Below, one piece after another: positions 8,323 through 64,000 of a stretch of DNA of 64,000 nucleotides. The position numbers were made by a program, and so were the translations under genes. Location: contig CALVYA010000006.1 of NCBI GenBank assembly GCA_944371905.1, positions 1-64,000 of the forward strand. The letters are read 5' to 3'. The stretch comes from an uncultured Bacilli bacterium (GTDB lineage: Bacteria; Bacillota_I; Bacilli_A; RF39; UBA660). Positions within the stretch are counted from its first letter, which is position 1. Each line of letters opens with the position of its first letter. The notes under the pieces are model-generated. The model made no database searches, was not told where the DNA came from, and saw only the letters and a program-made list of their open reading frames with translations.

Positions 8323-8375
8323 TCTATCTCTCCTTCCGCCATGATTTAATCAATCATAGTAATAATTGCTAATAT

Positions 8376-34871: not shown

Positions 34872-35114
34872 CTTTATCAACCTCCAAAAATAAAACACAG
34901 ATAAAACCTCCTTAAGGACGAAATATCCGTGTTACCACCTTAATTCATAGAAAAACTATGCACTCAATACATTAACGCTGTCAACGTATTAGCCTACATA
35001 TCGACTAATAAGACTAAGGAACCATCTTCTGTAATACTTACACTTTTTCCACCAACCAAAGCTCTCTATTATAAGTTAGTTACATCTCTTTCCCTCAAAG
35101 TCATAATAAATATG
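34872..35114 (-). ncRNA. T-box riboswitch, methionine type
   Basis: A leader of about 240 nt on the minus strand before dut-metG. Conserved T-box parts: AGAGAGC plus GGTTGGTGGAAAAAG in the stem I top, and the T-box AAGGTGGTAACACGG with TCGTCCTT after it. The bulge reads UGGU (34934-34937), matching an ACCA tRNA end. The specifier candidate is AUG at 35023-35025 in GAAGATGG, so Met. The terminator stem pairs CACGGATA with TATCTGTG and leads to TTTTATTTTT; it excludes the antiterminator. An extended -10, TGTTATAAT, lies at 35121-35129. Confidence 0.93.
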
Positions 35115-44743: not shown

Positions 44744-46369
44744 TTATTTTATCTCTATATCAACTGAATCAAACAGTTCATATATTTTATTATCAATAAT
44801 TTCTTGATCTTTCCTAACTTCCTTTTTAGAATTATTATCAGTTAATACAATGTATTTATCATCTATAATATTATATTTTTCATTATTATTCAATTTTTTT
44901 ATATATTCAGTTCTTGCTTCATTCCATTCTGAATCTGAAATTGCTACTATATGATAGTTTAATTGCAAATAATCATTTAAAATCTTTTCTATTTTCTTAT
45001 ATTCTTCATTCAATTTATCTGCAAGGGACGAATAAAGATAATCTATAACTACATATTCATTACTTGCTACTACCGGAGATCCATCTAACAAATTACATAT
45101 AATAGCACCATTTTCTTTATCAAAAGCATAATTTTTCAATTCTAACCATTTATTTTTTATATTATTTAAAAATTCTTTATTAGCATTAACAAAAGTATTA
45201 TTGATTCTAATAGTTTTAAAATCGGCGTTTGAAAATTTATTTGTTTCTTTCAAATTTTCTTCTTTTACTATGGTATCATTTTCTAGTTTAATAGGATCAA
45301 CACATTGCTCTTCTGTCTTTTTTTCAGAAAATATTTCCCGGGAAATATTTTCTATATTATTCGCTATATCTAATAAACCCACTTCAAAAATTATTTTTTT
45401 ACTAACAGAACTACTTTTCATTTTGTCATATATCTTGATCATTTCAGATAGTAAATCTTGCAATTCTTTATTTCTATCTTTCTTAATAAAAATTCTATCA
45501 TCCAATTCTTTTATAATATCTTCTACTATATAAATTAAATCATAGTTATTTTGATATAATGTATTCACTCGATCAATAGAATTGATAATATCTTTTGAAA
45601 GTATTAGATCAATCAGTGAAATAATCTCTTTTTTTGAAGGTTTATCACACACTGTTCTAACATCTTCCAATTCTATTTTGCTATTACAATAAGAATTAAT
45701 TTTTTCTAATAAACTCAAAGCATCACGCATACATCCGTCAGAGGAAGAAATAATTTCATCTATTGCTTCATTCGAAATTTCTATTTTTTCTTTATCACAT
45801 ATTTCTATAATTCTATTTTTCATATCGATAGAAGATATTTTTTTAAATTCTAGAACTTGACATCTAGACAATATAGTAGATGGTACTTTCTGAATCTCTG
45901 TTGTAGCTAATATAAATATAACATGAGATGGAGGCTCTTCTAATGTCTTTAACAAGGCATTAAAAGCGCCAATAGATAACATATGTACCTCATCAATAAT
46001 ATAAATTTTATATTTTAAAAAAGAAGGAACAATATTAATTTTACTTTTTAACTCTCTTATTTCATCGACTCCATTATTAGAAGCAGCATCAACTTCAATA
46101 ATATCTACACATTCTTTTGACGAGGAATTAAGACACGAATCACATTGATTACAAGGATTCAAATTGATTAAATTTTCACAATTAATTGTTCGAGCAAATA
46201 TCTTAGCAATACTTGTTTTTCCAGTTCCCCTTGGTCCAGTAAATAAATATGCATGCGAAATATTATTATTATTAATAGCATTTTTTAAAATCGTAGTTAT
46301 TACTTTCTGACCAGAAACTTCATCAAAATTAAAAGGTCTATATTTTCTATATATTGCTAGATGACTCAT
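44744..46369 (-). CDS. dnaX: DNA polymerase III subunits gamma and tau
   Basis: Clamp-loader ATPase linking polymerase, helicase and clamp loading. AAA+ domain: Walker A FTGPRGTGKTSIAKIFA near 44-60, zinc Cys set (CENLINLNPCNQCDSC), and the DEVHML Walker B. The 541-aa protein is near tau length in other Bacilli, and no frameshift site was found. Its middle (about 340-347, ENISREIF) is encoded by a perfect Noc-type site. It opens the run dnaX-ybaB-recR-bofA-holB-yaaT-trmN6-rsmI-pth-mfd. Confidence 0.96.
   Translation of the reverse strand: MSHLAIYRKYRPFNFDEVSGQKVITTILKNAINNNNISHAYLFTGPRGTGKTSIAKIFARTINCENLINLNPCNQCDSCLNSSSKECVDIIEVDAASNNGVDEIRELKSKINIVPSFLKYKIYIIDEVHMLSIGAFNALLKTLEEPPSHVIFILATTEIQKVPSTILSRCQVLEFKKISSIDMKNRIIEICDKEKIEISNEAIDEIISSSDGCMRDALSLLEKINSYCNSKIELEDVRTVCDKPSKKEIISLIDLILSKDIINSIDRVNTLYQNNYDLIYIVEDIIKELDDRIFIKKDRNKELQDLLSEMIKIYDKMKSSSVSKKIIFEVGLLDIANNIENISREIFSEKKTEEQCVDPIKLENDTIVKEENLKETNKFSNADFKTIRINNTFVNANKEFLNNIKNKWLELKNYAFDKENGAIICNLLDGSPVVASNEYVVIDYLYSSLADKLNEEYKKIEKILNDYLQLNYHIVAISDSEWNEARTEYIKKLNNNEKYNIIDDKYIVLTDNNSKKEVRKDQEIIDNKIYELFDSVDIEIK
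45327..45352. promoter_or_regulatory. Noc-binding site inside dnaX
   Basis: A 26-bp perfect palindrome centred on TATTTCCCGGGAAATA, within the dnaX coding sequence. The 16-bp core is identical to the three copies in the next intergenic region. Confidence 0.85.
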
Positions 46370-46387: not shown

Positions 46388-46396
46388 ATTGTAACA
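46388..46396 (-). promoter_or_regulatory. extended -10 of dnaX
   Basis: On the minus strand TGTTACAAT, about 18 bp before the dnaX ATG; the -35 match is weak. Confidence 0.45.
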
Positions 46397-46451
46397 CAAA
46401 TCACTAGTGCAATAAAGGTTTATTTTATGGTTATAATGATAAAACCTACGC

Positions 46452-46475
46452 AAAATATTTCCCGGGAAATATTTT
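46452..46475. promoter_or_regulatory. Noc-binding site 2
   Basis: A 24-bp perfect palindrome around TATTTCCCGGGAAATA. A 40-bp stretch starting here (46452-46491) recurs at 46846-46885 with a single base difference. Confidence 0.85.
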
Positions 46476-46844
46476 ATCGAACAAAAATACGAACATTTTT
46501 ATAAAAAAATAAAATACAATTTATAGAGAAAATATAAAAAATCTTTCAATCAAATGAAAATTTTTAAAAATGACATTTCTTATAAATTTAAAAGATATTA
46601 TAGATAAAAAATAACAAACAAATCATTTGTTTAAACATATGTTTTTTTTTACTATTAATCAATAACCTTAAGTCATACTTTATTGTATAAATATTATGAT
46701 TATACATACAAAAATCAAAATTCTAAATGAATTTATTTTATTAATTCTTCCTATTTAATATCTTGTATTTATTTTTATATTTTTTCACAATACAATTAAA
46801 ATATTATCAATCATTTCATAAAATATTTTTATTATTAAACTAAA

Positions 46845-46870
46845 TAAAATATTTCCCGGGAAATATTTTA
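46845..46870. promoter_or_regulatory. Noc-binding site 3
   Basis: A 26-bp perfect palindrome with the same 16-bp core. It lies 75 bp before the first parS site. Confidence 0.85.
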
Positions 46871-46944
46871 TCAAACAAAAATACGTTCTTTTGTTTTGCT
46901 TTACCATTAACTTTGTTTAAACAAGATCTAACATTTAAAATTTT

Positions 46945-46960
46945 TGTTTCACGTGAAACA
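46945..46960. promoter_or_regulatory. parS: parS site 1
   Basis: TGTTTCACGTGAAACA, a perfect 16-bp palindrome matching the bacterial parS consensus bound by ParB/Spo0J. Confidence 0.92.
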
Positions 46961-47105
46961 TAGTAGTTTTTAATATAGTTTTTTTAATTTACTGATATAA
47001 AATAACAATTATATTCTATATTTCAACAATTTCGTATTGTTAATTTATTTAAAAGTTTTCTATCACATCACTTTGGCTATTTTTTAATATGCAACCTTGC
47101 TTTAA

Positions 47106-47121
47106 CGTTTCACGTGAAACA
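47106..47121. promoter_or_regulatory. parS: parS site 2
   Basis: CGTTTCACGTGAAACA: identical to site 1 except for the first base, so the inner 14 bp are a perfect parS palindrome. Confidence 0.85.
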
Positions 47122-47210
47122 TCAAAATATTGTTATCTTTAATATATATTATTCTACTAATTTATTTATATAAAGTAATAATTAAAATTTATATTTTAAT
47201 AGTATTTACA

Positions 47211-47238
47211 AAAAAATATTTCCCGGGAAATATTTTTT
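47211..47238. promoter_or_regulatory. Noc-binding site 4
   Basis: A 28-bp perfect palindrome with the TATTTCCCGGGAAATA core, 34 bp from parS site 3. Confidence 0.85.
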
Positions 47239-47272
47239 GTAATATTACTTTATTAGATAATTTTATAAAAAA

Positions 47273-47288
47273 TGTTTCACGTGAAACA
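47273..47288. promoter_or_regulatory. parS: parS site 3
   Basis: TGTTTCACGTGAAACA, identical to site 1, ending 7 bp before the tadA stop codon. Confidence 0.92.
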
Positions 47289-47295
47289 TAATATA

Positions 47296-47745
47296 TTATC
47301 TTTTATTATTAAAAAATTTTTTTATAATACTTGAACATTCATCAGACATAATGCCTCTTTCTATTATAACTTGATGGTTATAGTTATTATTTTGTAATAT
47401 TTGCTCTATTATTTTTCTGTTATCTGTAATATTTGAATCGCATCCATAAATAATTTTACTTATTCTTGCCTGTTGAATAGCACTGGCACACATTGGACAC
47501 GGTTCTAATGTTACATAAATAATGGTATCATTCAGTCTCCAATCTTTTAATTTTGCACTTGCTTTTTCAATTGCAATTAATTCTGCATGACGTGTCACTA
47601 ACTTTTCTTTATCTTTTTGATTATAAGCTGATGCAATTACTACATTATCTTTAACAATTACAGCTCCTACTGGTATTTCATCTTCAATATCAGCAAATTT
47701 AGCTTGTTCTAAAGCTAATTTCATAAAATACTCGTTATTATACAT
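47296..47745 (-). CDS. tadA: tRNA-specific adenosine deaminase
   Basis: Zinc enzyme converting A34 to inosine in tRNA-Arg(ACG). Motifs: RHAELIAIEKA with the zinc His and catalytic Glu, and TLEPCPMCASAIQQARI with the zinc cysteines. The 149-aa protein starts at 47745, with GGAG 7 nt upstream; the longer frame would run through the SRP RNA and is rejected. It lies downstream of the SRP RNA, as in B. subtilis, where tadA and scr are adjacent. Confidence 0.95.
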   Translation of the reverse strand: MYNNEYFMKLALEQAKFADIEDEIPVGAVIVKDNVVIASAYNQKDKEKLVTRHAELIAIEKASAKLKDWRLNDTIIYVTLEPCPMCASAIQQARISKIIYGCDSNITDNRKIIEQILQNNNYNHQVIIERGIMSDECSSIIKKFFNNKR

Positions 47746-47759
47746 AATATCACTCCATA

Positions 47760-47838
47760 AAAAATAGCGCACATAAATAGGAATTGTTAAGGCTGCTATC
47801 TTCCGATCCTGACCTGGTTCCAATATATTTATTGCGCC
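47760..47838 (-). ncRNA. ffs: signal recognition particle RNA, small bacterial form
   Basis: The conserved helix-8 core ACCAGGTCAGGATCGGAAGA with TAGCAGCC following is the SRP RNA signature (GGAA tetraloop and the symmetric loop that binds Ffh). The outer stem pairs GGCGCAATAAATA with TATTTATGTGCGC. The end is marked by TATTTTTTATG. At about 79 nt this is the 4.5S-like form without the Alu domain, unlike the larger RNA of B. subtilis. Confidence 0.95.
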
Positions 47839-47844
47839 ATATAT

Positions 47845-47873
47845 AGATTAATATATTTTTTTTATTTTTGCAA
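47845..47873 (-). promoter_or_regulatory. sigma-A promoter of the SRP RNA
   Basis: On the minus strand: -35 TTGCAA (47868-47873), 17-bp spacer, -10 TAATCT (47845-47850); transcription would begin 7 nt later at the first G of the RNA stem (47838). Confidence 0.7.
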
Positions 47874-56665: not shown

Positions 56666-56974
56666 CCTTATCACTCCCCCCATTAATACGAATAATTAAT
56701 ACAAATTCATTTTAACTTATCCTGTTGAAAAAATAAAGTAAAAACCGTAAAAAAAAGATATCAACAAGTAATCAACAGAGTTTTCAACAAAAAATGTGCA
56801 TAAATAATAAGAAAAAAATTACTTTTTCACATTTTCCACAAATTTTTATTCATAACTATGAATAATGTTATCCACAAGTATGTTAATTTTGTTGATAACT
56901 ATTTTTAAAATGAATTGACAAATATGATAATTCTTTATTATAATAGGGTAGATTTTAGTTTGGAGGTGGAATGA
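56666..56974. other. replication origin oriC, upstream part
   Basis: About 310 bp without a gene between divergent dnaA and rpmH. DnaA boxes: TTATCCACA perfect at 56868-56876, TTTTCCACA 56832-56840, and in reverse TGTGCATAA 56795-56803 and TGTTGATAA 56890-56898. More degenerate CAACA-type copies lie at about 56757-56790. With the dnaA-dnaN gap this makes a bipartite origin as in B. subtilis. Strand polarity of genes flips here, as expected. Confidence 0.85.
56915..56944 (+). promoter_or_regulatory. sigma-A promoter of rpmH
   Basis: -35 TTGACA (56915-56920), 18-bp spacer, -10 TATAAT (56939-56944); both hexamers are perfect consensus. Confidence 0.85.
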
Positions 56975-63152: not shown

Positions 63153-64000
63153 ATGGAAAATGAAATAGTTTATTTATACTTAGATGATATTATACCTAAT
63201 AGATTTCAACCTCGTGAAGTTTTTGATGATAAAGCATTAAAAGAATTAGCAGTGTCCATTAGAGAACATGGTGTTATTCAACCAATTATTGTTAGAAAAA
63301 TAGGGACTAAATATGAAATAATTGCAGGAGAACGTCGTTATAAAGCTTCAACTATGGTAGGATTAACAAAAATTCCAGCTATAATTAGAAATCTTGATGA
63401 TAAAGAAAGTTCTAAAGTAGCTCTTATTGAAAATTTGCAAAGAAAAGACTTAACTGCTATAGAAGAAGCAAGAACATATCAAAAAATTTTAGATATTGAT
63501 AATATGACGCAAGAAGAATTAGCTAAAACTATGGGAAAATCTCAATCTGCGATTTCTAATAAATTGCGTTTATTAACTTTATCTAACAAAATACAAGACG
63601 CTTTATTGAATGAAAAAATATCAGAAAGACATGCTAGAGCTCTATTAAATGTTGATTCTGAAGAAGAACGTGATAGATTAACTGATTTAATTATTGAAAA
63701 ACGTCTTTCTGTTAAAGATTTAGAGAATTTAGTAAAAGAAGAACAAAAGAAAAAAGATGAGATTAAAACTTCATCGAGTGAAAAAGTAGAAAAAGAAGAT
63801 ACAGTAATTGATAATAGTAAAGTAGAAACTAAAAATAACGAAAATAATTATCCAAGAATTAAATTAGATGATCTTTTAAAAGATATTATTAAGGAAGAGG
63901 ATAAACCTTTAGAAAAAGAAAAAGATTCTGATATAGAAATGTTAGATTTATCAGAACCTGATGAAAATTATTATTCTTTTAAAGGATTAAAGGAAGTTAC
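63153..64000 (+). CDS. noc: Noc-like ParB-family DNA-binding protein (truncated by window end)
   Basis: 282 residues are visible; the frame is open at the edge. ParB N-terminal domain with the CTP-binding boxes GERRYK (59-64) and ENLQRKDL (93-100), then the DNA-binding HTH region around GKSQSAISNKLRLLTL (128-143) and SERHARALL (157-165). Gln131, Lys137 and Arg159 sit where Noc differs from ParB, which favours Noc. Position after rsmG also matches noc. The protein lacks Noc's N-terminal membrane-binding segment and has an acidic Lys/Glu-rich insert from about 195 onward. Confidence 0.85.
   Translation, partial: MENEIVYLYLDDIIPNRFQPREVFDDKALKELAVSIREHGVIQPIIVRKIGTKYEIIAGERRYKASTMVGLTKIPAIIRNLDDKESSKVALIENLQRKDLTAIEEARTYQKILDIDNMTQEELAKTMGKSQSAISNKLRLLTLSNKIQDALLNEKISERHARALLNVDSEEERDRLTDLIIEKRLSVKDLENLVKEEQKKKDEIKTSSSEKVEKEDTVIDNSKVETKNNENNYPRIKLDDLLKDIIKEEDKPLEKEKDSDIEMLDLSEPDENYYSFKGLKEV

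Follow-up and report, generated by a model that had tools for sequence, protein, structure and literature searches.

The division inhibitor Noc is a textbook example of a protein that arose by duplication of ParB and took on a new role. In Bacillus, an N-terminal amphipathic helix of Noc is required both for recruitment to the membrane and for inhibition of division (PMC4331003, PMC8429893); such a helix was predicted for every Noc homologue examined in 2015 (PMC4331003), and B. subtilis Noc that lacks it forms no peripheral foci and is impaired in occlusion (PMC4331003, PMC8429893). A glutamine and an arginine of the protein read the Noc-binding site (NBS), and one lysine, at position 179 or 184, suffices to license binding (PMC7383237). 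The present analysis concerns a window of 64,000 nucleotides (the whole stretch of DNA analyzed, contig CALVYA010000006.1) from an uncultured bacterium of an RF39-like lineage of Bacilli, whose family is a large group of uncultured, small-genome gut bacteria. In the gap between its dnaX and tadA genes, NBS are interleaved with parS, and the gap is well supported as a predicted composite ParB/Noc loading centre near the replication origin, oriC. The Noc-NBS and ParB-parS systems are themselves known; what is new is that NBS are restricted to the origin and interleaved with parS, and that Noc lacks the helix, across a large family. In the open-access literature we found no published description of NBS interleaved with parS, or of Noc in the window's lineage.

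The features concerned are the following, in window coordinates.

46456–46471, no strand: NBS 1 (Noc-binding palindrome), TATTTCCCGGGAAATA, a perfect palindrome; its 3′ flank ATCGAACAAAAATACGAAC is shared with NBS 2
46850–46865, no strand: NBS 2, perfect
46945–46960, no strand: parS 1, TGTTTCACGTGAAACA
47106–47121, no strand: parS 2, CGTTTCACGTGAAACA, with one outer mismatch and a perfect core of 14 base pairs (bp)
47217–47232, no strand: NBS 3, perfect
47273–47288, no strand: parS 3, TGTTTCACGTGAAACA, beginning 56 bp after the start of NBS 3
45332–45347, no strand: NBS 4, perfect, within the dnaX coding sequence, where it encodes I-S-R-E-I in the variable linker
56795–56898, no strand: DnaA-box-like sites upstream of dnaA, probable oriC
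63153–64000, plus strand: noc, 332 amino acids, extending to contig position 64148, beyond the window end
44744–46369, minus strand: dnaX (DNA polymerase III gamma/tau), left neighbour of the cluster and host of NBS 4
47296–47746, minus strand: tadA (tRNA adenosine deaminase), right neighbour, with an approximate coding start (MYNNEYF)

Across the gap the order of the sites is Noc-Noc-parS-parS-Noc-parS, just as an earlier annotation made from the letters of the window (the sequence-only reading) had given it. That reading had placed three perfect Noc-type palindromes at 46452, 46845 and 47211, and three parS palindromes at 46945, 47106 and 47273. All six are present, but the Noc-type sites start 4–6 bp further on than it reported; its count was right for the gap and missed the fourth NBS, in dnaX. 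It had also described the segment as free of genes, and a scan found no open reading frame of at least 60 amino acids between dnaX and tadA. Promoter-like sites in the gap are in no excess over shuffles, and no terminator was found there. A 19-bp element, ATCGAACAAAAATACGAAC, lies 3′ of two of the NBS (46476–46494 and 46870–46888), and recurs beside NBS in two other genomes, G001 and G003.

Dinucleotide shuffles of the window contain on average 0.43 (standard deviation 0.71) NBS-like and 0.30 (0.54) parS-like sites at up to three mismatches, and no shuffle matched the observed count of either. The whole assembly (1,294,023 bases in 43 contigs, 93.6% complete) was counted by pattern search, as the sequence-only reading had proposed. 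It holds four exact copies of the NBS 14-mer and three of the parS 14-mer, none of them away from the window cluster, and all seven sites therefore lie within 2 kilobases (kb), a density not seen elsewhere in the assembly. When one mismatch is allowed in the 12-bp NBS core, just two further, lone sites appear. Because the sign of the GC skew switches between 52–56 and 56–60 kb of the window, and DnaA-box-like sites lie just upstream of dnaA, the cluster is placed about 10 kb from the probable oriC, which agrees with the earlier description of it as lying near the origin.

The two proteins that would read these sites are encoded close by, in the gene order rsmG-noc-parA-parB, with parB at contig position 65142. 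Exactly two ParB_N proteins are encoded in the genome, one Noc and one ParB, of which ParB carries the LGKGL ParA-binding motif and Noc does not. Noc has the Pfam domains ParB_N and HTH_ParB, and its closest solved structures, by sequence and by predicted fold (mean pLDDT, the model's predicted local distance difference test score, 82.5), are the Noc proteins of Geobacillus and Bacillus. NCBIfam TIGR04285 scores it at 287.2 bits, which is below the curated cut-off of 315 and still makes this the best family; ParB also scores 245 against it. A maximum-likelihood tree puts Noc and ParB on clearly distinct sides, with a support of 100 for that of ParB. The DNA-reading positions of Noc (Q173, K179, 184 and R201) are Q-K-x-R in 77 of 79 family rows (one genome being counted twice), and those of ParB are mostly R-M-x-S/G among the few ParBs read. 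The GERR residues of the cytidine triphosphate (CTP) site and the ENxQR residues are invariant in the Noc of the family, and a CTP clamp is predicted from them. By its residues, the window protein is predicted to be a Noc with NBS-type specificity, and its paralogue a ParB with ParB-type specificity. The parS palindromes near oriC, together with parA and parB, constitute a ParABS centromere.

Neither the sites nor the proteins are peculiar to this genome. A Noc/ParB-type match is present in 116 of 117 sampled family genomes, and the NBS core in 98, usually in 1–6 copies; a reversed-pattern control gave no match in any of the 117. In a sample of the class, the exact NBS 14-mer was found in 35 of 38 family genomes versus 10 of 258 others. 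In the 53 genomes for which positions were available, noc or a parS is found on the same contig as 109 of the NBS; the distance is at most 33 kb for all of these and at most 25 kb for 106. Another 15 NBS are on contigs identified as origin contigs by gene content; 17 are unplaced, and the 11 of these loci that were examined all adjoin tadA, dnaX, mnmE, rsmI or pth. All placed NBS are in the origin segment, and there is no chromosome-wide spread. Comparison of the dnaX-tadA gap in relatives, another suggestion of the sequence-only reading, showed that the interleaved cluster recurs across the family, and interleaving in the gyrA-tadA-dnaX interval extends over many genera. Some NBS lie outside the parS cluster, in the mnmE-mnmG-rsmG stretch near noc. 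Outside the family, genome G083 (family f17) likewise has its three NBS near noc and parB (contig C1, 111465–138221), within about 27 kb of parS; this genome has a long Noc open reading frame of 681 amino acids.

The sites are conserved to a degree that their surroundings are not. The same 16-mer makes up 92 of 94 NBS, and in the window's genus, where the gap is just 53–60% identical between species, NBS persist with the attached flank ATCGAACAAAAATACGAAC. At one end of the range of arrangements is strict alternation, as in genome G018, which reads ppNpNpNpNpNNpNpN (p, parS; N, NBS) and has seven parS-NBS pairs at 44–46 bp; G152 has four pairs at 27–28 bp. In both, the spacing within the pair is constant, the outer flanks differ, and the inner spacer is also similar. 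Strict alternation is also seen in G026 (tandem units of about 79 bp), G097 (units of about 125 bp), G100, G107 and G152; at the other end, the sites form separate groups in G045 and G041. The spacings vary by genus (28, 45, 58 and 59), which led us to reject the idea that parS and NBS keep a constant helical phase.

NBS inside genes provide a different kind of evidence. In many genera they occur in the variable linker of dnaX, where their position varies and they are read as I-S-R-E in one frame and as Y-F-P-G-N in another. In rsmI, at least 10 family genomes use the NBS codons for a conserved I-S-R-E-I peptide. The codons ATT TCC CGG GAA for I-S-R-E are rare ones, with a chance of 0.0006 per gene under family codon usage, so that about 0.07 occurrences would be expected over 117 genomes versus the 10 family genomes seen; many of the rsmI loci were fetched for carrying NBS, and the argument rests on this low expectation. 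Only rsmI is informative here, the peptide being conserved there by itself. A count over all open reading frames, in which 45 of 50 I-S-R-E-I peptides had NBS codons, was set aside as circular, because an NBS in that frame always spells ISREI. From the two frames in dnaX and the rare codons in rsmI, it follows that the sites are kept for their DNA sequence. In the dnaX linker of one relative (L079, positions 11067 and 11133), parS stands where others have NBS, and in a second (L058) the linker holds parS or a parS-like sequence; neither has NBS on the locus, which suggests an exchange between parS and NBS operators.

The window's Noc begins at MENEIVYLYLDDIIPNRFQPR, directly after a ribosome-binding site, and its first residues are already the conserved core. 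No Bacillus-type N-terminal extension or membrane helix was found in 79 family Noc sequences, in which the frame is open for a median of 10 codons above the core before a stop; upstream frames of more than 11 codons were inspected individually. In nine of the 79 an open stretch of at least 20 codons (up to 58) precedes the core; its letters are leader-like, a ribosome-binding site lies just before the core, and no Bacillus-like start is seen there. The Noc of families f6 and f11 begins with a short hydrophobic stretch, as expected. Within the family, the DNA-binding domain and the conserved C-terminal domain are separated by a linker that is predicted to be disordered, is highly variable and often long, and accounts for total lengths of 323–658 amino acids. 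Short motifs in this linker are specific to sub-clades (FINYGEI, KFFNFLEDE, NPGFMDI and ADLDSLLN, e.g., in L157, L158, L191, L194, L266 and L238) and look like partner-binding sites; the Noc of the window has none of them. The linker of L238 contains a repeated DFMNFLNNYDATHPVNNPQP unit.

On balance, we consider it probable that the locus is a composite centromere in which an origin-restricted second CTP clamp recruits a partner via its linker, rather than an occlusion system of the Bacillus type. From the sites, the proteins, the specificity code and the conservation, all read directly in the DNA, we infer that ParB loads at parS, that a separate Noc-type clamp loads at the interleaved NBS, and that the two, by binding and sliding as CTP clamps, would spread over and be enriched on the same origin DNA. 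More tentatively, Noc would mark the origin and recruit a partner through its disordered linker; segregation could in this way be coupled to the replication or tethering of the origin, or to the choice of division site. Candidate outputs are anchoring of the origin and control of replication initiation, the latter being a role demonstrated for the Noc of S. aureus. Because NBS lie only beside the origin and Noc has no N-terminal helix, the Noc of this family most likely does not perform nucleoid-wide occlusion. The composite loading centre proposed in the sequence-only reading is therefore retained as a ParB/Noc centre, on the strength of the sites, their cognate proteins, the specificity residues and the recurrence in the family. 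What it called Noc occlusion complexes is not supported, if occlusion is meant as in Bacillus: the chromosome at large has no NBS coverage, and the amphipathic helix is absent. A broader proposition, possible in our view but a little short of probable, is that Noc in this family is no occlusion factor but completes a centromere built on two clamps, with parS and NBS maintained together as a single origin element, and that scattered, membrane-bound occlusion as in Bacillus is one of two evolutionary routes, possibly the later one. The deep Noc branches of the tree, which bear on whether origin restriction is ancestral, have supports of 21–64.

Several observations weigh against the composite centromere. 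Exact NBS are absent from 19 of the 117 family genomes, and most of these 19 do have Noc; the sites may have diverged, or may have been lost to gaps or collapsed repeats in the assemblies. Position 184 is usually not lysine in the Noc of the family, unlike most published Noc. Equal spacing within one genome can be a product of cassette duplication as well as of constraint, and duplication explains it equally well, because in G018 and G152 the inner spacers are similar too. The Noc of two other families (f13 and f19) also starts at the core, without a helix; helix loss is therefore neither tied to this arrangement of sites nor confined to the window's family, and the idea that it is unique to that family was dropped. 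It could also be that the linker binds the membrane in a manner invisible from sequence. Lastly, no MinD above the curated cut-off was found in 41 family genomes, the best matches including the ParA encoded beside parB, which leaves room for a role in division.

The strongest rival is an origin-restricted occlusion in which Noc would block division only around segregating origins, with linker motifs instead of the helix giving it access to the membrane or the divisome. With no MinD above the cut-off in the 41 genomes, another spatial regulator would be useful, the protein is a Noc by tree, fold and specificity residues, the short conserved motifs of the sub-clades could bind a division protein, and in a very small cell the origin zone might span much of the nucleoid. 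We nevertheless consider this unlikely, since helix-less B. subtilis Noc is impaired (PMC4331003, PMC8429893), the linker motifs are clade-specific and missing from the window's own Noc, and NBS are missing from the rest of the chromosome. Somewhat less likely still is a control of replication initiation, in which Noc near oriC would restrain DnaA or the initiation complex and the proximity of parS would be incidental. S. aureus Noc does control initiation (PMC5540599), and the confinement of placed NBS to the origin segment, including the mnmE-mnmG-rsmG stretch, fits such a role; however, tight alternation with parS would be unnecessary for it, and in S. aureus NBS extend over about half of the chromosome, so that clustering is not the source of that function. 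We give a similarly low standing to the proposal that Noc modulates ParB-parS, the interleaved clamp limiting the sliding of ParB or the loading of SMC by acting as a roadblock or spacer. Sliding clamps on one DNA would meet, and in many cases NBS flank parS or alternate with it at distances of tens of bp, but in G045, G041 and G148 they lie 1.5–15 kb from parS without alternation. That the palindromes are of similar composition by chance and were amplified with local repeats, with no Noc function, is very improbable: some do sit in tandem repeats (G026 and G097), but identical 16-mers stand in diverged flanks over many genera, sites in coding sequence use rare codons, a matching DNA-reading protein is present, and chance was rejected by the shuffles, the reversed-pattern controls and the codon evidence.

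Among the other features of the window, a bacterial small signal recognition particle RNA lies between tadA and gyrA (47750–47848, minus strand). The mechanically called tadA frame of 175 amino acids overruns into this RNA, and the true start is therefore the later ATG (MYNNEYF). A T-box leader (34911–35107, minus strand, 97.6 bits) and an L31-Firmicutes ribosomal protein leader (8330–8359, minus strand) were also identified.

A large lineage that has kept the DNA code of Noc, lacks the membrane helix and carries all its NBS beside parS shows the loading of Noc on DNA apart from occlusion, and raises the question of what function Noc had before it served in occlusion (or took on afterwards). 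In addition, the parS-NBS cassette, at about 70 bp, is a small defined DNA on which two paralogous CTP clamps can be tested together.

Finally, we compare the locus with the described systems. It resembles the Noc-NBS system of Bacillus subtilis and Geobacillus (PMC4331003, PMC7383237, PMC8429893) in its 16-bp operator, in the CTP-clamp domain of a ParB paralogue, in the Q-K-x-R residues, in the position of the C-terminal domain and in a gene that adjoins rsmG and parAB. It differs in that family NBS are restricted to the origin and interleaved with parS, whereas Bacillus NBS are scattered and sparse only near the terminus, and in that family Noc has no N-terminal membrane helix and a much longer and more variable linker (hence the range of 323–658 amino acids in total). 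With S. aureus (PMC5540599) it shares a Noc acting on NBS, and the origin-linked role there is in replication initiation; the NBS of S. aureus cover about half of the chromosome, and those of the window's genome about 2 kb. With ParABS centromeres it shares a parS cluster near oriC, ParA, and a ParB with LGKGL, but here a second, paralogous operator lies in the same interval, with a predicted clamp of its own.
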